Positions 26,513-38,136 of a DNA stretch of 64,000 nt are shown piece by piece. The stretch's first letter is position 1. Each line of letters begins with the position of its first letter. The translations under genes and the position numbers were made by a program. Source of the DNA: Streptomyces sp. NBC_00654 (GTDB lineage: Bacteria; Actinomycetota; Actinomycetes; Streptomycetales; Streptomycetaceae); contig NZ_JAPEOB010000001.1 of the NCBI RefSeq assembly GCF_026341775.1, forward strand, positions 1,550,001 to 1,614,000, in the 5' to 3' direction. A model generated the notes under the pieces. The model worked only from the letters and a program-made list of their open reading frames with translations. It searched no databases and was not told where the DNA came from.

Positions 26513-27634
26513 TCAGTGCAGCGGTGAACGGCGGACGGACAGGACTGCGACGTCGTCGTGCTGGCTGCCGTCCCCGGCGAACGCGCGCGCGTTGTCGTAG
26601 AGGGCGCGCGGCAGGTCGGTGGGGGAGAGCGAGACACGCTCGGCCAGCCGTTCGGTGATGGGGTAGAACGTGCCGTCGGCGGCGCGGGTCTCGGTGAGTC
26701 CGTCGGTGGTCAGCAGGAGCGTCGCGCCGGGCGGGAAGGCGAACCAGTCGACGGTCGCGGGTTCGGTGGCGAGTTCGGCCAGGCCGAGGGGGACACCGGA
26801 GTCGAGGGCCGGGGTGCTGACCGCGGCGTCGTGGAGCAACTGCGGCGGAATGTGGCCGCAGTTGATGACCTGCACCTCGTTGTGCGCGTCGATGTTGACG
26901 ACCAGGGCGGTGACGAACCGTTCGTCGTCGCCGGTCTGCGCGGCGTAGGAGTTGTGCCGTACGACAGAGGCGTCGAGCGCGTCGGCGAGCGCGGTCAGGG
27001 TGGGCTCCCGGTGGGCCGCCTCGCGGAACGCGCCGATGACCGCGAACGCGGCGCCCACCGCGGGCAGGCCCTTGCCCTGGACATCGCCGATCAGGACCCG
27101 GGTGCCCCACGGGGAGGCGACGACGTCGTAGATGTCGCCGCCGACGAGCCGGTCCTCCTGCACGGGCTCGTACACGCCGTCGACCAGGACATCATCGGTG
27201 AGCAGGGGCAGCGGGCGCAGGATGTGGCGCTGCATCGCCGCGGCGGTGGAGCGGATCCGCAGCATCTCGTGCTCCCGGTGGATACGGCGGTCGCAGGCGT
27301 AGACGGAGGCCGCGCCCAGGGTGAGCGTCAGCAGCATCATCAGGAACCTGTCGACCCACGACGCCCCGTCGCCGTGCCGGAGCACCACGGTGACGATGAC
27401 CACGATCGTGGTCCACGCGGAGACGAACAGCGTCTGCCGTACGGTGCACAGCGCCGACGCCGTCCCCGGCAGGAACACAAGGAGCCCCAGAAGCCACACC
27501 AGCGACCCGGACAGGGCGCCGAGGGCCAGCACCAGAGCCGTCATCGACACCACGCCGATCACGACTTCGGCATTGCGCGGCGGCTCGATGGCCTCGAAGG
27601 GACGTGCGAATCTCCTCGGACGAGTACGGGGCAC
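26513..27634 (-). CDS. Membrane-bound PP2C (SpoIIE-type) protein phosphatase
   Basis: The 373-aa protein has four or so N-terminal membrane segments (about 20-120, such as VVIGVVSMTALVLALGAL) and a SpoIIE/RsbU phosphatase domain from about 160. Metal-site motifs are VGGDIYDV, IGDVQGKG, LTTDGLTE and GSQHDDVAVL. Such enzymes dephosphorylate anti-anti-sigma proteins. The GTG at 27634 follows GGAGG. Confidence 0.88.
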   Translation of the reverse strand: MPRTRPRRFARPFEAIEPPRNAEVVIGVVSMTALVLALGALSGSLVWLLGLLVFLPGTASALCTVRQTLFVSAWTTIVVIVTVVLRHGDGASWVDRFLMMLLTLTLGAASVYACDRRIHREHEMLRIRSTAAAMQRHILRPLPLLTDDVLVDGVYEPVQEDRLVGGDIYDVVASPWGTRVLIGDVQGKGLPAVGAAFAVIGAFREAAHREPTLTALADALDASVVRHNSYAAQTGDDERFVTALVVNIDAHNEVQVINCGHIPPQLLHDAAVSTPALDSGVPLGLAELATEPATVDWFAFPPGATLLLTTDGLTETRAADGTFYPITERLAERVSLSPTDLPRALYDNARAFAGDGSQHDDVAVLSVRRSPLH

Positions 27635-27825
27635 GGGACCTCCTGGCAAGTGGTGTGTTCCCCGTACGTTAGGCAGGCACAGCCGCGAGCGAGCCGCGCC
27701 CCGCCGGACGGGGTCCGGCGGGGCGCGGCCGTGGCGGGTGAGGAAGAGGCGCACCTCGACGGCGGTCATGATCGGATGGCCCGCGGTATCCGGGGACACA
27801 GTGCGATGAGAGAGGCCGGGGCGGG

Positions 27826-30015
27826 ATGGGGCGCGGTGAGCGGGAAGCGGTCGCGGAGGGCGTGCGGCTGCACGACGCCGCGCAGGCGGTGGCCGGTGAC
27901 CACGGGAGGGCCGTCGAGGCGGTCCGGGCGGCGCTGAAGCCGATCCACGACGAGGCGGTGGAGCAAGCGCTCGATGCCATCCCCGTGGCCAGGCTGAAGG
28001 AGGTCACCGAGGGCAGGCTGAGGCTCGGCGACATCAAGAAGAGCGGGCTGCGGTCGGTCCGGCAGGTGCTCGACGCGGGCCCCTACCGGTTGCGGCAGAT
28101 TCCCGGCGTGGGACAGCGGACCGCCGATCAGGTCGTCGCGGCGGCGCGTCAGATATCCGATGCCGTACGTGAGACCGTCGCCGTCCACATCGATGTGGAC
28201 GCACCGGAGCCCCGCACCACGGCACTCGTCGAGGCCCTGTACGTCCTGGTGGAGGCGGGTCCCGACGCGCGGCGCGCCGTTGACGCCGCCGCGGTTCTCT
28301 CGGCGCGCCTCGGCCCGCTGCTGGCCGGGGCCAGGACCGCCGGCGGGCGGTTGCGCATGCTGCTGGCCGGGCGGGCCAAACGGGAACGGGCGCTCAAGGC
28401 GGTCGCCGAGGTCCGCGGGGCGACCGAGGAGGCGGTACGGGGCGGAGTGCCGGAACTGCTCGCCCAGGCCTCGGTCGATCTGCTGCGTGGTACCCCTTCC
28501 GACGTGGCGGCCTGGGTCGACTTCGAGCTGCGCTCCGCCGAGTACTACAGCCTGCTCGCGGAAATCTCCGGCGGCGGCCCCGACCCCGACGCCGCCGAGG
28601 GGTTCCTGCCCGACGAGGTCGCCGAACGGGTCCGCGGCCAGCTGCTCGACGACACCCACCGCAGGGTGTCGCTGCGCGGCTACCAAGCCTTCGGAGCACG
28701 CTTCGCCCTCACCCAGCGCAAGGTGATCCTCGGCGACGAGATGGGGCTCGGCAAGACCATCCAGGCCATCGCGGCCCTGTCCCACCTCGCCGCCGAGGGG
28801 CAGAGCCACTTCATGGTCGTCTGCCCGGCCGGCGTCCTGATCAACTGGACACGCGAGATCGAGGCCCGCAGCAAGCTGCGCGCGACGCCTCTTCACGGCC
28901 CCGACCGGCAGGAGGCGTTCGCCGACTGGCAGAGCCGGGGCGGGGTAGGAGTGACCACCTTCACCGCCCTGAGCGGTTTTCCCGTCCCCGCGAACGGCGA
29001 GCTCGGGATGCTGGTCGTCGACGAGGCCCACTACGTCAAGAACCCGCAGGCGCGCCGCTCCCGAACCGTGACCGCCTGGTCCGAGCACTGCGAACGCGTT
29101 CTCTTCATGACCGGCACCCCCATGGAGAACCGCGTCGCCGAGTTCCGCAGTCTCGTACAGATCCTCCAGCCGCAGCTGGCCGAGGCCATCGGTGACCGTG
29201 ACGGTGCGGCCGGTGCCAAGAGCTTCCGCCGGGCGGTCGCACCGGTCTACCTGCGCCGCAATCAGCAGGACGTCCTGACCGAACTGCCCACGCTCCAGCA
29301 CACGGACGAGTGGGAGGAGCTGAGCGCGTCGGACGAGGCCGCCTACCGCGAGGCGGTGCGCGAGGGCAACTTCATGGCGATGCGCAGAGCGGCCTACGCA
29401 CACCCCGGGAATTCGGCCAAGCTGGACCGGCTGGGCGAGATCGTCGAGGACGCCGCCGAGAACGGGCTGAAGGTGGTGGTGTTCTCCACCTTCAGGGATG
29501 TCCTGGCAACGGTGAAGGAAGCGCTGGACGGTACCCGTGGCCCCGGCGGCGGTCAGGTGTTCGGCCCGCTCTCGGGGAGCGTGCCGCCCGTACGCCGCCA
29601 GCAACTGGTCGACGAGTTCACCGCCGCACCGGGGCACGCGGTGCTGGTGGCGCAGATCGAGGCGGCGGGAGTGGGACTCAACATGCAGGCCGCGTCCGTC
29701 GTGATCATCTGTGAGCCGCAGATCAAGCCGACCCTTGAGCATCAGGCGGTGGCGCGGGCCCATCGCATGGGGCAGTTGCGTTCGGTCCGGGTGCACCGGC
29801 TGCTCGCGACGGGCGGGGTGGACGAGCGGATGGTGCGGATGCTGAAGAACAAGTCCCGGCTCTTCGACGCGTACGCACGCCGCAGCGTGGTCGCCGAGTC
29901 GACGCCGGACGCCGTCGATGTGTCGGACACGGCGATGGCCCGCCGGATCGTCGAGGAGGAGCAGGCGCGGCTGGGAGCGGGAACGGCCCCCGTCCGGTCC
30001 ACGGGGCACCCGTAG
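27826..30015 (+). CDS. SNF2-family DEAD/DEAH ATPase with N-terminal helix-hairpin-helix
   Basis: The 729-aa protein has an N-terminal region with a helix-hairpin-helix (YRLRQIPGVGQRTADQVVAA, about 86-105). The SNF2 core has motif I GDEMGLGKTIQ (Lys310), motif II DEAH (399-402), FMTGTPMENR and the C-terminal motif QAVARAHRMGQ. Such ATPases translocate on double-stranded DNA to remodel protein-DNA complexes. The ATG at 27826 is weakly supported by a G-rich upstream. No neighbouring gene suggests a defence system, so the role is open. A tail of about 60 residues follows the helicase domain. Confidence 0.88.
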   Translation: MGRGEREAVAEGVRLHDAAQAVAGDHGRAVEAVRAALKPIHDEAVEQALDAIPVARLKEVTEGRLRLGDIKKSGLRSVRQVLDAGPYRLRQIPGVGQRTADQVVAAARQISDAVRETVAVHIDVDAPEPRTTALVEALYVLVEAGPDARRAVDAAAVLSARLGPLLAGARTAGGRLRMLLAGRAKRERALKAVAEVRGATEEAVRGGVPELLAQASVDLLRGTPSDVAAWVDFELRSAEYYSLLAEISGGGPDPDAAEGFLPDEVAERVRGQLLDDTHRRVSLRGYQAFGARFALTQRKVILGDEMGLGKTIQAIAALSHLAAEGQSHFMVVCPAGVLINWTREIEARSKLRATPLHGPDRQEAFADWQSRGGVGVTTFTALSGFPVPANGELGMLVVDEAHYVKNPQARRSRTVTAWSEHCERVLFMTGTPMENRVAEFRSLVQILQPQLAEAIGDRDGAAGAKSFRRAVAPVYLRRNQQDVLTELPTLQHTDEWEELSASDEAAYREAVREGNFMAMRRAAYAHPGNSAKLDRLGEIVEDAAENGLKVVVFSTFRDVLATVKEALDGTRGPGGGQVFGPLSGSVPPVRRQQLVDEFTAAPGHAVLVAQIEAAGVGLNMQAASVVIICEPQIKPTLEHQAVARAHRMGQLRSVRVHRLLATGGVDERMVRMLKNKSRLFDAYARRSVVAESTPDAVDVSDTAMARRIVEEEQARLGAGTAPVRSTGHP

Positions 30016-30023
30016 GAGTCTGC

Positions 30024-30072
30024 CGGGAGCCGGGAGCCGGGAGCCGGGAGCTGGGAGTCGGGAGTCGGCAGC
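30024..30072. repeat. 7-bp tandem repeat, seven units
   Basis: CGGGAGC is repeated four times, then TGGGAGT, CGGGAGT and CGGCAGC, directly after the SNF2 gene stop. Confidence 0.85.
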
Positions 30073-30108: not shown

Positions 30109-32883
30109 TCAGCCGATCATGCCCAGCCGCTCCCCGCCCCGGTCGTGCAGTCGCCGGAAGAAGGCCAGTACGCCGGCCGAGCCACCGGCCCAGGTGGCGT
30201 TCGGGCCGGTCAGGCCGGTGTCCGGGAACGTCGGGCGGGACCGCGTGCCGCCGCTGCGGCTCAGGATGATCATCGCTACGTCTCCGGCGGCGTCCCACAT
30301 CTCCTCGGACCCGGACGCCTCCGCGACGTCCACCAGCAGGTCGCCCACCCCCGCCAGCCCGCAGCACTGCGTGACCAGCGGCATGCGTGGCGCCAGCGCG
30401 GCGCAGGTGTGTGCCGTCCGCTGTGCGAGGCGAAGGTACTCGGGTTCCCCGAGGCGGTCGGCGGCGCGGAGAAGTACGGCTCCGATCCCGGCGAGGCCGC
30501 GGCACCAGGAGCCGTAACGGCGGGTCGCCCGCGGCTCGTTCGCCGCCGCGATGATGCCCGGTGTGGCGGCGGCGAGGTGCGCGCAGGCCTTCCGGGACCT
30601 GCTGATCACGGCCGGGTCGCCCGTCGCGCTGCCGTGTTCGAGCAGGAAGTACGCGACGCCCGCCTCCCCGTGCGCGAGGCCCGTGCCCAGCGCAGCGCTG
30701 CCGGGTGAGCCGGTGCCCGTCGCCGTCAGCCCGGCCTCGCCGGACTCCAGCATCCGGTCGCACGCGGCGGCTATGGCCCGGTGCCGGTCGGCCGCGTGGC
30801 GGTCGCCCGCCGCGAGGGCCTGCCGGGCGAGCAGCAGGCGGCCGAGGCCGATTCCCGCGGCGCCCTCGATCAGGTCCGCCTCCGGCGGGCCGCCGTCCGG
30901 CGTCCGGACCGGCAGGACCGGGTGGACCGAAGGGACCGGATGGTCCGACTGCCCGGCCGACGCCGCCGTTCCCGTGCCCGTGCTCCCTGCGCCCGCGTCC
31001 TCCGTACCCGTACCCGCATTCGCCTCCGCGAGGAACAGTTCCACGCCGGTGCGGCCGGCGTAGAAGCCCGGCGACATGCTCCTCGTCTGCTGGGCGGTCC
31101 ATCGGGCCAGTGCGTCGACGGCTTCCCGCACCCCGGGGCGCCCGGTGTGGTGGAGGAGCTCCAGGCCGAGCCCCGAGCTTCCGCCGTAGACATCGACCGG
31201 CGTCGGGATGTTCAGGCGGGCGGCGCGCACCGGGTCCACGATCCTGCGCGCCTCCTCGGCGCAGTAGGCGGTCGTGTGCTCGATGATCTCCTGGAGCAGG
31301 CCGTCGTCCAGCCGCTGCCGTCGTGGCTGCCTGGGTGGTCCTGACGCCTCGGGTGTCCCCGTCCGGAGCCGGCCGGCACCGGCGGTTCGCGCGGTCGCGT
31401 CGAGGTTCATCAGACCGGTGATGGAGGACCGGATCTCCCGGTGGGCACGGCCGGGCAGCGCCCAGGCCAGGGCGTCGAGGGTCCGTTCCAGATTGACGCC
31501 GTCGTCGGCGTCGGCGATCACCGGGTCCAGGCCCGTGGCGGCGTAGAACAGGGTCGCGCCCAGCGCGTAGTAGTCGTCGGCGGGCGCGGCCGGACCGCTC
31601 CCGCGCTGAACGGGTGCGCTGTAGCCGGGGGTCGCCCCTCCCGGGCCGGTACCGCCCAGCTCGCTGATCCCGAAGTCGATCAGATGGCACCGGCCCGTGT
31701 CGTCGAGGACCACGTTGTCCGGCTTGAGGTCACGGACGACGACGCCCCGGCCGTGGATGTCGTCCACGATGCGCAGGAGACCCGTGGCGAGAGCGGAGAG
31801 CGTGCGCGCCGGATCGGCGGGGTCGTCCCGGTAGGGGCCGTTCTCCTGGACGTCCCGGCGCAGGTCCCGGCCGCCGCAACTGCTCATCACCAGATACTCG
31901 TCCGAGCGATGCCGGAAGTAGTCCAGCCCCCGGGGCACACCGTCGACGGTGGCGAGTGCGGCGAGGACCGTACGTTCGTTGCGCAGCCGGTCGCGCGTGT
32001 CCGCGCCCGACTCGTCCTCGGCCACGAACGCCCTCGCCTGCTTGACCACCACGGACCGTCCCGTGGACCGGTCGACCGCCCGGTAGACGTTGCCCTCCGG
32101 CTTGCGCACGATGCCGGCGGTGACCGTATAGCGTCCGCCGCCCAGGCCGGGCGGGGACGGCTTGTCCGCGGGCCCGGACCCGGGCCCGGACGCAGGGCTG
32201 GAGACGGGCCCGGACGCAGGGCTGGAGACGGGCCCGGACGCGGGGCTGGAGACGGGCCCGGACGCGGGGCTGGAGACGGGCCCGGACGCGGGGCTGGAGA
32301 CGGGCCCGGACGCGGGGCTGGACCCGGGCGCGGTCGTGGTCGTGGTCGTGAAGGGATCCTCGGCCCAGGGCGGGCAGCGGTACGAGCCGACGGCCAGCCC
32401 GTCGAAGATCCGGCCGTCCGGTCCGGTCATGACCGACTCCAGCCGTCCGCTCCGGCCGGTCCGGTACTCGCCCGTGAAGGGCCCGTAACGGTAGTAGACG
32501 GGGGAGTCCGGATCGGCCCGCCGGTCGCTGACGACCTGCGGGCCCTCCCGGCCGCGCAGCACAGCGACCAGTTCCCCGGCGATCTCCACGACGGCGCCGG
32601 GCAGGGGATAGACCGTGATCGCCTTCCCCACGATGCCCGCGTCCGGCACACCGGAGTTGATGGTGCGCAGTGTCTCCGCGTCCCGGGCGAACTTCGCGTG
32701 GCAGACATGCCGCCGCAGCACCGGCAGTACGAGAGCGGTCACCTCGTCGAGTTCGGCGGGACGCGCGGTGATGTGCAGTTTCCAGCCGTGGTCCATCGCC
32801 GGCATCCGCGGATCGTTCAGGTACGACCAGATGTCGTCGGACCAGTCGCACCATCCGCTGCGGCCGGCGATGGATTCGGTCAC
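30109..32883 (-). CDS. lanL: Class IV-like lanthipeptide synthetase (lyase-kinase-cyclase)
   Basis: The 924-aa enzyme has three modules. An N-terminal phospho-Ser/Thr lyase (about 30-170) has KAITVYPLP and VYYRYGPF. A Ser/Thr kinase (about 250-500) has Lys281, VRDLKPDN (Asp385) and DFG 403-405. A LanC-like cyclase spans about 550-920. The cyclase keeps three candidate zinc ligands: Cys793 in GSWCRG and Cys840-Cys841 in TQCCGLAG. Class III enzymes usually lack ligands and class IV usually have Cys-Cys-His (CHG), so a CCG triad is unusual. Residues about 187-240 are (SSPASGPV)n encoded by tandem DNA repeats. The GTG start lies 1 nt after the lanA stop. It would install (methyl)lanthionines in the adjacent precursor. 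Confidence 0.92.
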   Translation of the reverse strand: MTESIAGRSGWCDWSDDIWSYLNDPRMPAMDHGWKLHITARPAELDEVTALVLPVLRRHVCHAKFARDAETLRTINSGVPDAGIVGKAITVYPLPGAVVEIAGELVAVLRGREGPQVVSDRRADPDSPVYYRYGPFTGEYRTGRSGRLESVMTGPDGRIFDGLAVGSYRCPPWAEDPFTTTTTTAPGSSPASGPVSSPASGPVSSPASGPVSSPASGPVSSPASGPVSSPASGPGSGPADKPSPPGLGGGRYTVTAGIVRKPEGNVYRAVDRSTGRSVVVKQARAFVAEDESGADTRDRLRNERTVLAALATVDGVPRGLDYFRHRSDEYLVMSSCGGRDLRRDVQENGPYRDDPADPARTLSALATGLLRIVDDIHGRGVVVRDLKPDNVVLDDTGRCHLIDFGISELGGTGPGGATPGYSAPVQRGSGPAAPADDYYALGATLFYAATGLDPVIADADDGVNLERTLDALAWALPGRAHREIRSSITGLMNLDATARTAGAGRLRTGTPEASGPPRQPRRQRLDDGLLQEIIEHTTAYCAEEARRIVDPVRAARLNIPTPVDVYGGSSGLGLELLHHTGRPGVREAVDALARWTAQQTRSMSPGFYAGRTGVELFLAEANAGTGTEDAGAGSTGTGTAASAGQSDHPVPSVHPVLPVRTPDGGPPEADLIEGAAGIGLGRLLLARQALAAGDRHAADRHRAIAAACDRMLESGEAGLTATGTGSPGSAALGTGLAHGEAGVAYFLLEHGSATGDPAVISRSRKACAHLAAATPGIIAAANEPRATRRYGSWCRGLAGIGAVLLRAADRLGEPEYLRLAQRTAHTCAALAPRMPLVTQCCGLAGVGDLLVDVAEASGSEEMWDAAGDVAMIILSRSGGTRSRPTFPDTGLTGPNATWAGGSAGVLAFFRRLHDRGGERLGMIG
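32182..32335. repeat. 24-bp minisatellite inside lanL
   Basis: Five full units beginning GGGCTGGAGACGGGCC (32195, 32219, 32243, 32267, 32291) are flanked by partial units. The period is in frame and encodes the 8-residue motif SSPASGPV between the lyase and kinase domains. Confidence 0.95.
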
Positions 32884-32884
32884 G

Positions 32885-33067
32885 CTACGAGTTCTTCTGG
32901 CACTCGAAACGGGTGGTGGCGGTGACCCAGGGGTCGGAGAGGCAGGCCGTGTGCTCGCGGTCGCTGCGGTCGTCGTCCTCGAACACGATCGCCTCGTCGT
33001 CGACCGCCAGCGGCCCCGCGTCGCGGACTTCGTCGACCTTCGGGAGTTCCAGCATGGCTGTGGGCAT
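32885..33067 (-). CDS. lanA: Lanthipeptide precursor peptide
   Basis: The 60-aa peptide starts with ATG 33067 after GGAGG (6 nt). The leader has a hydrophobic helix start (MLELPKVDEV), then a very acidic run (VFEDDDRSDRE at 28-38), as in class III/IV leaders. The C-terminal core, from about residue 38, contains Thr40, Cys42, Ser44, Thr49, Thr51, Thr52, Cys56 and Ser60. With two cysteines, at most two thioether rings can form. The lanL start follows after a single base, so the pair is translationally coupled. No transporter or protease gene is adjacent. Confidence 0.88.
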   Translation of the reverse strand: MPTAMLELPKVDEVRDAGPLAVDDEAIVFEDDDRSDREHTACLSDPWVTATTRFECQKNS

Positions 33068-33411
33068 GTGACGCCTCCGTGTCTTGTCGAGCATGCGCTG
33101 ATGAAACGGGTTCCGGCCGGTGGGGACCGGCCGGGGTGCCCGCTGATTCAAGGTGCTGATCACGAAGGTAGGCAGCGGGGATCCGGGTGACAAGAGGCCC
33201 GATGCCGCTGCGGATACCCGTATTCGCCCCTCGACGGCACGGCCGAAAACCGCCGCCTCCCGCCGGACGGTACGGAGGGCGGAGGCGGCGCGCGTACGGA
33301 GGACGGAGACGGCGCGCACGGAGGGCGGAGACGGCGCGCACGGAGGGCGGCCGGCGCCCGGCCACCCCTGGTCGGTTCGCCGTGCCGGCCCTCCGCCGGC
33401 GGTGCCGGCCC
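33068..33411. other. lanA upstream region
   Basis: This gap lies between lanA and the converging end of the GH65 gene upstream on the same strand. It carries the lanA ribosome site and the 22-bp repeat array at 33273-33350. I could not identify a convincing -10/-35 promoter or a second small precursor gene. Confidence 0.5.
33273..33350. repeat. 22-bp intergenic tandem repeat
   Basis: Units 33297-33318 and 33319-33340 differ by one base (CGGAGGGCGGAGACGGCGCG plus CA). A 24-bp variant precedes them and a partial unit follows. Confidence 0.85.
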
Positions 33412-36108
33412 TCAGCTCGCCGTGCCGACCCTCAGTTCGGCGATGCCCGCCGGTTTCTCCGCGTCCTCCGATCGGACTGTCACCCGCACCATCCTGGCGC
33501 TGCCCCCGGCCACGTACGGCTGCCACACGCGCCCGTCCACCGAGGTCTCCAGGGTGTGCGAGGCGGGGGGCACGTCGCCCCACTCCGGTACGAGGGAGGT
33601 CACGCCGAGCGGCCGGCCCAGGTCCACCGTGAGCGATCCCGTCGCCCCGTCCGGGGACCAGACCGTCGTCGGGCTGCCGTCCACCGCCGCCTCCGCGTAC
33701 AGGCCGGGGGTCTCGGAGGTGGCCGTCGCCGGGCGGCAGCGTGCCGCGTCGGCCGTCGGGGCCAGGTCGGGGCGGCGCGTGGGCAGGGTGAGGGTGGTGG
33801 ACAGCCGGCGCGGGCCCGCCGGAGTGTGGACGGTGAACGGGGCGCCGGACGTCAGCCGCACCGTGCTCGTCCGGGCGCCGATGACCATGTCGTACGTACG
33901 GCCCTGATGGCGCAGGCCCGTCAGTGTGACGCCCTCGTGCAGCTGAGGGGGCAGCATCGGGTCGAGGCGCACCCCGTCCTCGCGCAGCCGCAGCCCCGTC
34001 AGCCCGTGCGTGAAGACCTGGAGGAAGCCGCCCTTCCCGGTGATGAAGTCGTCGGCCGGAAAGCCGGAGAGGGGATCCTGCGCACCGGACTTCTCGCCGC
34101 GTGCCTCGGAGAACACGGAGTACGGGCCGCGGACGAACGGCCGCACGGCGCGCTGGAGATAGGTGTACGTCGCACAGCCCGGCTCCCCGATGGCGGCGGC
34201 GGCGACCGCGTGCACCGAGTCCGTCATCGCGGGGCCGTCCGGGTCGGTGCGGGCCGCGTAGTAGTCGAGCGTGGCGGCGGCCGCGCCCTGCTCCATCGGC
34301 CACTCCAGGGGATGGATCAGCAGCACGGCGTCGGCCTGCTTGATGGTGGAGCCGTTGTAGCCCGCGTACTGGAGGAACACCTTCCGTTCCGCGTCGTACG
34401 GGATACGGAGACCGTCCGCGACCCGCGTCCAGGCGTCCGGTGCCGGGTGGCCGAGCAGTTCGGCGGCGCGGGTCGCGTGACGCAGCGCGGTGGCGGCGAC
34501 CGCGTTGGTGAAGACCCCGTCCGTGACCCCGTTGCTGTACTCGTCCGGGCCCGCCACATTCCGCACCGAGTAGCTGCCGTCGCTGTTCGCGGTGGCGCGC
34601 GACCGCCAGAACTCGGCGATGCCCCGCAGCAGCGGCCAGCCGCGCTCCGCGAGCCAGTCGCGGTCGCCGGTGGCCAGGTAGTACTGCCAGACGGCGAGCG
34701 CCACATCGCCCTGGAGGTGGTTCTGGGTGAGGCAGTGCGGCGGGTCCCAGCTCTGGCACTCGGAGTCCAGCCGGCCCCTGCTCGCGCTGGTCCAGGGGTA
34801 GAACAGGCCGTCGTAGCCGAGTCGTTCCGCGTTCGCGCGGGCGGCGTCGCGGGTGCGGTAGCGGTACTCGACGACGGAGCGCGCGAGCTCCGGCCGGGTG
34901 ACGAGCAGTCCCGGGTACACCCAGGTCTCGGCGTCCCAGAACACCATGCCCGCGTAGTTGTCGCTGGTCAGACCGGCCGGGGCGATGCTGTCCGAGGAGC
35001 CCGGCCGGGTGTTCGCGAGCAGCCCGTACTGCGCGGACCGCAGCCAGCCCTGGAGTTCGGGACGGCCCCGTACGGTGACATCGGCGGCCCAGTCCCGCCG
35101 CCAGGCCGCGGCGTTCGCCTCGAAGACGCCCGTCCAGCCGCGCCGGGCCGCGCGGTGCGCGGCGTCAAGGGCGGACCGGCGCGGGGCGGAGGACGTGAGC
35201 GCGGTGTCGACGCCCACGTACTTCTCGAAGGTGTACGTGACGCCCTCGCGCACCGGGGTCGGCTGCGGGGCCTTCCCGGGCCGGTGCCGCAGTGTCTCGA
35301 CGATGCCCGAGCCGCGTCGCATCGTCTGGGCGATGGCCCCCTCCGTCCCGGTGCCCAGGGTGCGGAACGTGCCGTCCGAGGCCATCGTGATCCGGCGCGC
35401 GCCCCGCTCGTCCAGGCGCCCGGTGACGGTCGCCGTACCGCTCCAGCGCGGGGTCATGCGCAGCCGTACCGCTCCGGTGTGGACATCGGACCGGTCGGTC
35501 AGGACGTCGTACGTCAGGTCGGTCGCCCGGCCGTCGGCGGTGGTCCAGCGCAGCGACGTACGGACCAGCCCGCAGGCCAGGAACACGGTCTGCCGGTAGT
35601 GCGAGATCCGGCCCGCCGGGGTGCCGGGGCCGTAGGTCTCCCCGCCGACGCGAACATCGAGGGTCGTCCAGCTCGGCAGCGCCGCGATGACCTCGCGCCC
35701 CTCGGCCGTGCCCTTCTCCCTGGCGTACAGCCCGGAGACGAACGCGCCGTCGTAGCGGGGGGTGTACAGGGGCCAGCCGGTCTTCTCGCCCGAGGCGTCG
35801 TACCCGGCCCCGGTTGCGGGGACGCGGTGTCCGAGATATCCGTTGCCGACATAGGGGTCGTATCCGGCGGCCTCACCGAAGCGGGTGGAGCTCGGCGCCC
35901 AGGAGGCGTCCGGGCCGTCCGTCCGGCCGCAGACCGGCGGCGGCTCCGTGCCGTTCCGCGCGGTGGCGTGCGGGTCCGCGCCCTGCGGGCCGGCGTGGTG
36001 CGGGGCCGCGTGGTACGGGGCTTCGGCGGCGTACGAGAGGAGTGGCAGGGGCGCGATCAGGGCGCCCGCGGCCAAGGACGCGAGGAGAGGGATGCGCGAG
36101 AGGCTCAC
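33412..36108 (-). CDS. Secreted GH65 glycosidase with C-terminal discoidin-like domain
   Basis: The 898-aa precursor has a signal peptide (about 1-28, LLASLAAGALIAPLPLLS). Its (alpha/alpha)6 catalytic region resembles glycoside hydrolase family 65, with WDAETWVYPGLLVTRPELA, QNHLQGDVALAVWQYY and GPDEYSNGVTDG (general acid Glu523). GH65 enzymes act on alpha-glucosides such as trehalose or kojibiose, by hydrolysis or phosphorolysis. A secreted form with this layout suggests an acid-trehalase-like hydrolase, which is inference. The last about 140 residues (SLTVDLGRPLGVTSL, VTVRSED) look like an F5/8-type carbohydrate-binding domain. GTG 36108 follows TACCTT by 6 nt, suggesting a leaderless mRNA. 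Confidence 0.88.
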   Translation of the reverse strand: MSLSRIPLLASLAAGALIAPLPLLSYAAEAPYHAAPHHAGPQGADPHATARNGTEPPPVCGRTDGPDASWAPSSTRFGEAAGYDPYVGNGYLGHRVPATGAGYDASGEKTGWPLYTPRYDGAFVSGLYAREKGTAEGREVIAALPSWTTLDVRVGGETYGPGTPAGRISHYRQTVFLACGLVRTSLRWTTADGRATDLTYDVLTDRSDVHTGAVRLRMTPRWSGTATVTGRLDERGARRITMASDGTFRTLGTGTEGAIAQTMRRGSGIVETLRHRPGKAPQPTPVREGVTYTFEKYVGVDTALTSSAPRRSALDAAHRAARRGWTGVFEANAAAWRRDWAADVTVRGRPELQGWLRSAQYGLLANTRPGSSDSIAPAGLTSDNYAGMVFWDAETWVYPGLLVTRPELARSVVEYRYRTRDAARANAERLGYDGLFYPWTSASRGRLDSECQSWDPPHCLTQNHLQGDVALAVWQYYLATGDRDWLAERGWPLLRGIAEFWRSRATANSDGSYSVRNVAGPDEYSNGVTDGVFTNAVAATALRHATRAAELLGHPAPDAWTRVADGLRIPYDAERKVFLQYAGYNGSTIKQADAVLLIHPLEWPMEQGAAAATLDYYAARTDPDGPAMTDSVHAVAAAAIGEPGCATYTYLQRAVRPFVRGPYSVFSEARGEKSGAQDPLSGFPADDFITGKGGFLQVFTHGLTGLRLREDGVRLDPMLPPQLHEGVTLTGLRHQGRTYDMVIGARTSTVRLTSGAPFTVHTPAGPRRLSTTLTLPTRRPDLAPTADAARCRPATATSETPGLYAEAAVDGSPTTVWSPDGATGSLTVDLGRPLGVTSLVPEWGDVPPASHTLETSVDGRVWQPYVAGGSARMVRVTVRSEDAEKPAGIAELRVGTAS

Positions 36109-36114
36109 GTCATG

Positions 36115-36120
36115 AAGGTA
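36115..36120 (-). promoter_or_regulatory. -10 element, leaderless promoter of the GH65 gene
   Basis: TACCTT, a 6-nt spacer and GTG on the minus strand, without a ribosome-binding site. Confidence 0.45.
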
Positions 36121-36210
36121 GGGAAGGCGGCGGCGCGGGCGGGGGCACGGCGCGCGTGAACGGCGGACGGCTGCGGGGCGAAGCGGCCGGATGGAGCAGA
36201 GGAGAGCGGC

Positions 36211-36705
36211 ATGTCGTACCCGGATCCCACCTACACCGTCGGCTCGGGCGAGATCAGCGCCTCGTACCGGCCCTCGGACACCGCCCCGGAGCTGCTGACG
36301 CCCAGCGGCGGACGGACGTACTACCTGGCCACCACGGAGTCGACCCGCGGTGAGTTCGGGCTGTACCGGATGGACATGGCACCCCGTGCGGGCGGTCCGG
36401 CCACGCACTTCCACCGGTCGATCTCGGAGTCCTTCTTCATCCTCGACGGGACCGTACGGATCTACGACGGCGAGCGCTGGACGGACGCGACGCGGGGCGA
36501 CTTCGTCCACGTACCGCAGGGCGGTCTGCACGCCTTCCGCAACGACGCGGACGAGCCCGCGTCGATGCTGCTGCTCTTCACACCGGGTGCGCCGCGCGAG
36601 GAGTACTTCGAGCAGGTGGCCGAGGCCGCCGAGTGGTCGCCCGAGGAGCGGGCGGAGTTCTTCATCAAGCACGACACCCACTGGATCGAGCACGACACCC
36701 ACTGA
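36211..36705 (+). CDS. Cupin-domain protein
   Basis: The 164-aa protein has one conserved cupin barrel. The metal motif HFHRSISESFFILDG supplies His, His and Glu, and the second motif is GDFVHVPQGGLHAFRN. An acidic C-terminal helix follows (AEAAEWSPEERAEFF), ending in a His-rich tail with repeated HDTHW. The ATG follows GAGGAGAG. It is divergent from the GH65 gene. Substrate and reaction cannot be read. Confidence 0.88.
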   Translation: MSYPDPTYTVGSGEISASYRPSDTAPELLTPSGGRTYYLATTESTRGEFGLYRMDMAPRAGGPATHFHRSISESFFILDGTVRIYDGERWTDATRGDFVHVPQGGLHAFRNDADEPASMLLLFTPGAPREEYFEQVAEAAEWSPEERAEFFIKHDTHWIEHDTH

Positions 36706-36711
36706 ACGGAC

Positions 36712-36798
36712 CGATTCACCGGCCGGCTCACCTGCTGATTCACCGGCCGGCTCACACTCTGACCGGCCGGCTCACGGACTGACCGGCCGGCGGCTCAC
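36712..36798. repeat. Direct repeats containing ACCGGCCGGCTCAC
   Basis: Four near-copies of TTCACCGGCCGGCTCAC lie between the cupin stop and the end of the threonine-synthase-like gene. Each contains the palindrome CCGGCCGG. Confidence 0.8.
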
Positions 36799-37901
36799 GC
36801 CCGTTCCGCGGCCAGGCCCGTCTTGAGCCCCGCTCCGCACAGCGGTACGACGACCTCGCGGTCCGTCCAGCTACCCACCGCCGCCCAGCAGGCGACCCCG
36901 GTCGTCTCCACGAAGAAGCCGCGGGACGCCAGGTCCCGCTGGGCGGCGCGGATCCGGTCCTCCGTCACGGTGAGGAAGGTGCCGCCCGACGCGCGGACGG
37001 CCGCCAGGATCTGACGGGCGCGCGGCGGGCGGGGGATGGCGATGCCCTCCGCGAGCGTGGGGGCCGCGTCGGCGGCGGCGGTGGCCGGGAGGTCCCGTGC
37101 GCCCGCGTGGAACGCGGCGGCCAGCGGGGAGACCGCCTCGGCCTGGACGGCGATCAGGGCCGGGCGCCGCTCGATCAGGCCGCGGGCGTGGAGTTCGGCG
37201 GTGGCGAGTGCCGCGCCGAGCAGCAGGGTGCCGTTGCCCACGGGTACGGCGAGCGCCTCCGGCAGCCGGCCGCCGAGGTCCTCCCACAGCTCGTACACAT
37301 AGGTCTTCGTACCGTGCAGGAAGTACGGGTTGAAGACGTGCGAGGCGTAGAAGGTGCCGGGGGTGCCGGCGGCGGCGCGGGCGGCCAGCGCGGTGGCCTC
37401 CCGGCCGCCCGGGACGACCTCCAGCCGGGCGCCGTGGGCCCGGATCTGTTCGGTCTTCTTCGGGGAGGTCCCCTCGGGGACGTACACCGTGCAGGGCAGG
37501 GCGGCCCGCGCGCAGTACGCGGCGACGGCGGTGCCCGCGTTGCCGCTGCTGTCGGCGACGACACGGGCGGGGTTCAGCCGGCGGGCGAGTTCCACGAGCA
37601 TCACGGCGCCGCGGTCCTTGAAGGAGAGCGTCGGCATCAGGTAGTCGAGCTTGGCGGAGACCGTCCCCGTGAGCGGCACCAGCGGGGTGCGGCCCTCACC
37701 GAGGGAGGTCGTGGGGGCGGAGAGGGGCAGCGCTTCCTCGTAACGCCACTGTGAATTGACGCGCCCGGCGAGGGAGTTCAGCGAGAGCCCCGCCGAGGTC
37801 TCGAAATCGAGGTCCCAGGGGCCCCGGCAGCGGGGGCAGCACCAGGTCAGGTCGGTGATGTCGGCACGGGTCCCGTCCTGCGGGCAGCGGTACATGGTCA
37901 T
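36795..37901 (-). CDS. Threonine-synthase-like PLP enzyme
   Basis: The 368-aa protein has a Cys4 zinc-ribbon-like N-terminus (CPQDGTRADITDLTWCCPRC). The fold type II PLP domain has the lysine in PTLSFKDRGA and the phosphate loop DSSGNAGTAVAAYC. SHVFNPYFLHGTKTY and PVGNGTLLLGAAL follow. This resembles actinobacterial threonine-synthase-like proteins that convert phosphohomoserine or a related substrate. As it is outside a thr operon it may be a paralogue. ATG 37901 is chosen; ATG 37913 and 37895 are alternatives. Confidence 0.82.
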   Translation of the reverse strand: MTMYRCPQDGTRADITDLTWCCPRCRGPWDLDFETSAGLSLNSLAGRVNSQWRYEEALPLSAPTTSLGEGRTPLVPLTGTVSAKLDYLMPTLSFKDRGAVMLVELARRLNPARVVADSSGNAGTAVAAYCARAALPCTVYVPEGTSPKKTEQIRAHGARLEVVPGGREATALAARAAAGTPGTFYASHVFNPYFLHGTKTYVYELWEDLGGRLPEALAVPVGNGTLLLGAALATAELHARGLIERRPALIAVQAEAVSPLAAAFHAGARDLPATAAADAAPTLAEGIAIPRPPRARQILAAVRASGGTFLTVTEDRIRAAQRDLASRGFFVETTGVACWAAVGSWTDREVVVPLCGAGLKTGLAAERA

Positions 37902-38136
37902 GCCCGCCAGCATGTCAGGCGGATGGCGGATGAATGTCGAATGTATGGCGCACCTCAAGGCACCCTTGTGGGTTTGCCATGCATCGGTCAAAGTTTCGCC
38001 TGGCAGTACGACAGGCCGGTCACGGACGGCGCGGAAAGCGTGGCGCCACGGTGTCTGGTTTGTCATGCCCATGACTGGAATCGCGGCGCGGCTCCAGTGC
38101 CCCCACCAGCACACGCCCATGAGGAGGACCCCTCAC

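Follow-up and report, generated by a model that had tools for sequence, protein, structure and literature searches.

A predicted SflA-type class IV lanthipeptide locus in Streptomyces sp. NBC_00654 and its place in a cysteine-ligand branch of LanL

Introduction

Two adjoining genes, lanA and lanL, in a 64-kb window of a 9.6 Mb Streptomyces genome (positions 1550001-1614000; "the window" denotes this whole stretch of DNA) very probably form an SflA-type class IV lanthipeptide locus, predicted to yield a two-ring peptide by the mechanism proposed below. The gene order, the protein families, the conserved catalytic residues, the cysteine in place of the third zinc ligand and ring residues like those of Streptomyces sp. 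NRRL S-1022 can all be read from the DNA. The product is probably a small peptide closed into rings, of a family (SflA) that has been described before. The locus is thus a further predicted member of that family, and the novelty given to it by a sequence-only reading of the window is not upheld.

In what follows, we describe the gene pair and its precursor, place the zinc site of the synthetase among other LanL enzymes, weigh whether that site signals a broad substrate range, and set out a proposed biosynthesis. The features are collected in Table 1.

Table 1. Features of the lanA-lanL locus and of its neighbours, in window positions
Feature	Position	Strand	Basis or remark
lanA, SflA-family precursor, 60 aa	32885..33067	-	NF038148 match; 44/60 residues as in NRRL S-1022 precursor
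C-terminal precursor part, residues 40-60, including putative core	32888..32950	-	Thr40, Cys42, Ser44, Thr49, Thr51, Thr52, Cys56, Ser60
GGAGG, probable ribosome-binding site of lanA	33074..33078	-	read from sequence
lanL, class IV lanthionine synthetase, 924 aa	30109..32883	-	NF038150 match
Lyase (RamC_N) domain, residues 9-185	32329..32859	-	Pfam PF25816, 140.5 bits
24-nt tandem repeat, 7.0 copies, (SSPASGPV)n-type lyase-kinase linker	32167..32333	-	in-frame
Kinase domain, residues 264-499	31387..32094	-	Pfam PF00069, 77.8 bits
LanC cyclase domain, residue 560 to C-terminus	30112..31206	-	PF05147 (LANC_like) match at 560-862
Cys794, first predicted zinc ligand	30502..30504	-	alignment with CHG-type LanL
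Cys840-Cys841, predicted second and third ligand (Cys for His)	30361..30366	-	alignment
Subtilase (S8), 1129 aa	23045-26434	+	3.7 kb between its end and lanL, with two unrelated genes intervening
SpoIIE phosphatase	26513-27799	-	
SNF2 helicase	27826-30015	+	downstream of lanL, convergent
GH65 glycosidase	33412-36702	-	upstream of lanA
PLP enzyme, threonine-synthase kind	36795-38120	-	

The gene pair and its family

The ATG start of lanA lies six bases 3' of the GGAGG, and its product is MPTAMLELPKVDEVRDAGPLAVDDEAIVFEDDDRSDREHTACLSDPWVTATTRFECQKNS. The lanA stop codon ends at 32885 and lanL begins with GTG at 32883, hence a single base separates the genes, and the reading frame coordinates confirm what had been claimed of them, namely a 60-residue precursor one base upstream of a lyase-kinase-cyclase synthetase. 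RamC_N, Pkinase and LANC_like domains are found in one lanL chain, all above their Pfam cut-offs.

Curated NCBIfam models match both genes and bear out the earlier assignment to a class IV-type lanA-lanL system: lanA scores 102.1 bits with NF038148 ("SflA family class IV lanthipeptide"; cut-off 25) and lanL 889.5 bits with NF038150 ("class IV LanL"; cut-off 650). The match of lanL to the LanM model reaches 46.2 bits (cut-off 304) and is confined to residues 669-877. Class III (LanKC) was rejected, as the class III model NF038151 gives 325.8 bits, below its cut-off of 575, and seven LanKC rows are without all three of the cysteines present here.

A protein search returned 657 relatives of the synthetase (best 120 listed) and 32 of the precursor. 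The nearest other synthetase among the matches listed is that of Streptomyces sp. TE33382 (91% identity, annotated as class IV LanL), and the top precursor match, 98% identical, is marked as the cluster encoded by the window itself. The genome search proposed in the sequence-only reading finds the lanA-lanL pair again in other genomes; since both genes also score far above curated cut-offs, the pair is not due to chance.

The precursor and its relatives

SflA of Streptomyces sp. NRRL S-1022 was reportedly described by Ren et al. in 2020. The pair of that strain belongs to the same NCBIfam families as the window pair, with the precursor before lanL in both; its LanL (P0030) is 66% identical to that of the window and likewise CCG (Cys in the place of the third, His ligand; see below). 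From residue 36 on, the Ser, Thr and Cys positions of the two precursors coincide, and the window core has both Cys, as well as the Thr, of CLxDPWVTATTRFxC. The two loci differ in a few core residues (Glu55, Gln57, Lys58), in their neighbouring genes and in the lyase-kinase linker, which is much longer in the window enzyme. The NRRL S-1022 precursor carries the PDLLK motif that passages of PMC10885120 give for SflA.

Across the 32 members of the precursor family, a set gathered by shared-word similarity, which favours conserved cores, Cys42 is kept in 32 and Thr49, Thr51, Thr52 and Cys56 in 31 each (the remaining row is a gap), and Ser44 is replaced by Ala in 21.

The predicted zinc site of the synthetase

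In an alignment with CHG-type LanL, Cys794, Cys840 and Cys841 of the window enzyme occupy the Cys-Cys-His columns and form a CCG site. Three cysteines had been claimed at 793, 840 and 841; all three are present, with the first at 794 rather than 793. The third ligand is Cys by alignment, as the description of a CCG-type cyclase had it, and the case that was said to refute it, a third ligand elsewhere or a CHG motif, was looked for in the alignment, not found and rejected. The LanC ligand positions are thus filled, unlike in class III, and zinc is predicted to be bound.

Excerpts of PMC9889658 give Cys-Cys-His as common to LanC, LanM and LanL, a statement that, judged on aligned residues, fails for the CCG branch of LanL. 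We regard Cys as third ligand as a branch trait and not as a ground for excluding an enzyme from class IV. The view that the site departs from the usual class IV pattern is therefore right in part: CHG is the commoner state in Streptomyces LanL (26/36, see below), but a large CCG branch exists, and because this second branch includes the LanL of NRRL S-1022, the source of SflA, the window enzyme is not an oddity.

The PDB entries 8car and 8cav ("Serine/threonine protein kinase") hold a full-length relative (527 bits) that also has TQCCG, and the LanC part of 8car is nearest to an Actinomadura LanL among the compared rows (64% over 244 residues). The identification of 8car as SgbL was dropped, the nearest compared rows being Actinomadura; "8CAR" is not mentioned in the literature searched.

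Two branches of LanL

CCG is found in all 121 rows formed by the query and the best 120 of its 657 relatives, two of these rows being the window's own protein. With the repeat copy (P0003) dropped before alignment, 324 aligned rows comprise 317 with CCC, three with CCH and four without a residue at the site. Clustering at 90% leaves 256 rows (250 CCC, three CCH, three without the site), hence 250 of the 253 that have it, a share that overstates CCG because the sets were fetched mainly with CCG queries or with a mixed alignment scored against the window protein.

Less biased in this respect, a search of 199 Streptomyces genomes with an alignment of both kinds gave 36 LanL matches passing 1e-150, in 33 genomes, of which 10 are CCG (window included) and 26 CHG; 29 were typed by alignment (10 CCG, 19 CHG), and L007 and six others by motif. 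That CCG might be the general norm of class IV is ruled out by this larger CHG branch. Phylum-wide samples are too thin for a tally: of 396 genomes, three had a match above the LanL cut-off, and a CHG query picked out 2 of 396.

Scores on the LanL model (cut-off 650) run across both branches. Six VenA-type CHG enzymes score highest (1175-1210 bits), and the six motif-typed CHG matches, at 983-1034 bits, also lie above the cut-off, as do the CCG enzymes L123 (923), L124 (915) and L126 (798). Three CCG enzymes fall just under it (L130, 642; L131, 637; P0157, 620), as does P0158 (CHG) with 529 bits. Besides the window enzyme and the six motif-typed matches, 16 of 19 proteins tested, P0155-P0158 among them, lie above.

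In a tree of 71 rows, built quickly and without bootstrap from 42 CCG rows picked for spread, 22 CHG and seven LanKC, all CCG rows group together as a single clade (SH-aLRT 100), whereas no single clade is resolved for the CHG rows. The CCC, CCH and ligand-less LanKC states require two changes on this tree, versus 25.0 with shuffled labels; six CHG rows fetched later lie outside it.

From these comparisons, together with those of precursors and neighbourhoods below, we propose a joint picture to which we give an even chance. Actinobacterial class IV may consist of two lineages told apart by the third ligand, of which the SflA-type clade, spanning Streptomyces, Kitasatospora, Nonomuraea, Actinomadura and others, would have changed His to Cys once, together with a new R-D-A-G leader family whose precursor gene precedes lanL; export genes would not be clustered with the pair, and CCG would be no mark of promiscuity there. 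Neither CCG in LanL nor a ligand-based split of class IV is mentioned in the literature searched, outside which the likeliest papers lie; for that reason we claim no priority.

Precursor types at CCG and CHG loci

The two kinds of enzyme are accompanied by different precursors. A VenA-type precursor follows lanL at 18 of the 19 CHG loci L132-L150, a different small Cys-rich peptide taking its place at L146. At L150, the peptide agrees with the VenA positions that Goto et al. 2010 give in passages of PMC2843593 (PFA 27-29, Thr31, Cys32, Cys34, Thr39, Thr43, Cys45, Ser49 and Cys50). Scans of the other seven CHG matches found no VenA-type precursor; L007 has a long-leader candidate and the remaining six have none.

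Among 85 CCG loci (84 with a raw motif match, plus the window; L110, with none, was left out), 73 have an R-D-A-G-type precursor by filter, 71 with one match and two with two. In other scans, a precursor is visible at four of the 12 loci that failed the filter (L037, L043, L083 and L099). Where its position was examined at CCG loci, the R-D-A-G-type precursor precedes lanL. No CHG locus passed the filter, and 13 CHG loci had any raw motif match.

As far as excerpts of PMC2843593 describe VenA-VenL, the system resembles the window pair in its lyase-kinase-LanC enzyme and its lack of a clustered protease, and differs in having clustered transporter genes (venT and venH). VenA-type loci are CHG with the precursor after lanL, whereas the window pair is CCG with the precursor before lanL.

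At L004 and L007, two distant CHG-type LanL are accompanied by precursor candidates that have long leaders and resemble neither VenA nor SflA; L004 and L005 score over the LanL cut-off and L007 under it. A nearly invariant Cys-rich core, QAC.NTCKRTVC...PCCPSI, unlike that of SflA, stands behind an R-D-A-G leader beside a CCG LanL in Actinoallomurus, Nonomuraea, Actinomadura and Saccharopolyspora (L063, L065, L068, L070, L072, L075-L077, L079, L086-L088, L098, L100, L103 and L107). In Streptomyces diastatochromogenes (L108), the lanL frame ends early behind an intact SflA-type precursor.

Substrate breadth

Passages of PMC10027976 and PMC12328550 describe Cys as the third zinc ligand in the LanC domain of ProcM-type class II LanM and link the CCG site of class II enzymes with promiscuity. 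By analogy, the window enzyme could be a ProcM-like tolerant class IV synthetase, its CCG site meaning a more reactive zinc and several diverse precursors being served. The alignment confirms the CCG site, and between distant CCG loci the cores that follow the common R-D-A-G leader motif are quite dissimilar. ProcM-type LanM, however, have other dehydration domains and many precursors per genome, whereas the window enzyme has lyase and kinase domains and family-model and leader-motif searches of its genome found no second SflA-family precursor. The leader-motif search gave 8 matches versus 10 in a reversed control; judged by eye, only the window's own match precedes an acidic, Cys-bearing short tail, and a match with a one-Cys short tail behind a basic stretch (L156) was taken as chance. 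The ring residues are also nearly invariant, as given above for the 32 precursors.

The divergence of cores was compared between the branches at matched enzyme identity, with repeated species kept in. Mean core identity is 91 for CCG versus 92 for CHG at 80-90% enzyme identity, 81 versus 86 at 70-80%, 79 versus 73 at 60-70% and 56 versus 64 at 50-60% (5 CHG pairs); below 50%, cores diverge widely (CCG 19-21; CHG 9, 18 CHG pairs). CCG cores are thus slightly less alike in three of the four bins, but the differences are just 1 to 8 points of raw means and the sign reverses at 60-70%. Core divergence, a proxy and not a measure of substrate range, gives no sign of ProcM-like freedom. A ProcM-like synthetase is accordingly not the likelier reading and we consider it very improbable; the broad substrate range that had been suggested finds no match in a single SflA-family precursor with a nearly invariant core and CHG-like core divergence.

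Gene neighbourhood and the linker

No transporter or tailoring gene adjoins lanA-lanL among its neighbours in the window, and no export gene was found there. The earlier observation that transporter, protease and tailoring genes are lacking next to the pair agrees with the unrelated neighbours listed in Table 1, and the subtilase gene is common to at most two of 42 compared loci. These comprise the window and 41 of 80 lanL loci, clustered at 40% identity and 60% coverage. Their sole common gene is lanL, called in 36 of the 42, and the next cluster occurs in five; as lanL itself was called in just 36, the comparison can miss genes. Since no other gene is common to the loci, "minimal", rightly said of the window locus, looks like a property of the SflA-type family.

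Loss of partner genes, together with impairment of the enzyme by a long low-complexity linker, could instead mean a decaying or silent locus, a reading to which we give hardly any credence: the 70-residue linker, the longest of the 121 rows measured (window counted twice), arises from a 24-nt tandem repeat and no partner gene is conserved over the 42 loci, but the lanL frame is open throughout, the checked catalytic positions are intact, relatives have linkers of anywhere between 12 and 70 residues, and the SflA locus likewise does not hold its protease, which passages of PMC10885120 and PMC8358304 place outside it.

Other features of the region and the genome were seen in passing. In P0004, a relative with 91% identity, the linker is another tract, of 52 residues. 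The DNA separating lanL from the SNF2 gene contains a GCCGGGA heptamer array (7.3 copies, 30022-30072), and that separating lanA from the GH65 gene a 22-nt repeat (3.5 copies, 33272-33350). Elsewhere in the genome, L001 (1501-2676; G000:C3:1076531-1077706, minus strand; 474-aa frame) encodes a second LanC-type protein with a PF05147 match of 168 bits, a VCHG motif and no NCBIfam match at 1e-30.

Proposed biosynthesis

For the SflA-type pair we infer the chemistry, ring partners, protease, cut site, export route and zinc binding by the three cysteines from sequence comparison. The synthetase would bind the acidic leader (VRDAGPL...FEDDD), its kinase domain would phosphorylate Thr and Ser of the core, and its lyase domain would eliminate the phosphate to give Dhb and Dha. 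The checked lyase, kinase and LanC residues, with the roles usual for their families, are conserved in nearly all 256 clustered rows and intact in the window enzyme. The LanC domain, with zinc on Cys794, Cys840 and Cys841, would then add the thiols of Cys42 and Cys56 each to a dehydro residue.

As Ser44 is Ala in most relatives, two separate methyllanthionine rings are expected, one of Cys42 with Dhb49 and one of Cys56 with Dhb51 or Dhb52. These partners are suggested by the conserved Cys42, Thr49, Thr51, Thr52 and Cys56 and by the two non-interlaced rings reported for modified SflA in passages of PMC8358304 and, likewise, PMC10885120. Cleavage of the leader probably occurs near Lys10, with trimming by a bifunctional M1-type metallopeptidase whose gene lies elsewhere, in line with reports on SflA; an excerpt of PMC10885120 names the SflA protease SflL, a name avoided here. 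Eight M1 peptidase genes, candidates for an AplP-like enzyme, are present in the genome, none inside the window.

Implications

The window offers a predicted SflA-type pair for which the compared loci show no conserved partner gene, and its single point of interest is the proposed clade-wide ligand switch. The comparison places CCG within class IV and separates it from substrate breadth; if this is true, the view of CCG as a site of promiscuity, taken from ProcM, does not extend to other cyclases. Natural CCG and CHG LanL offer material for probing the function of the third ligand.
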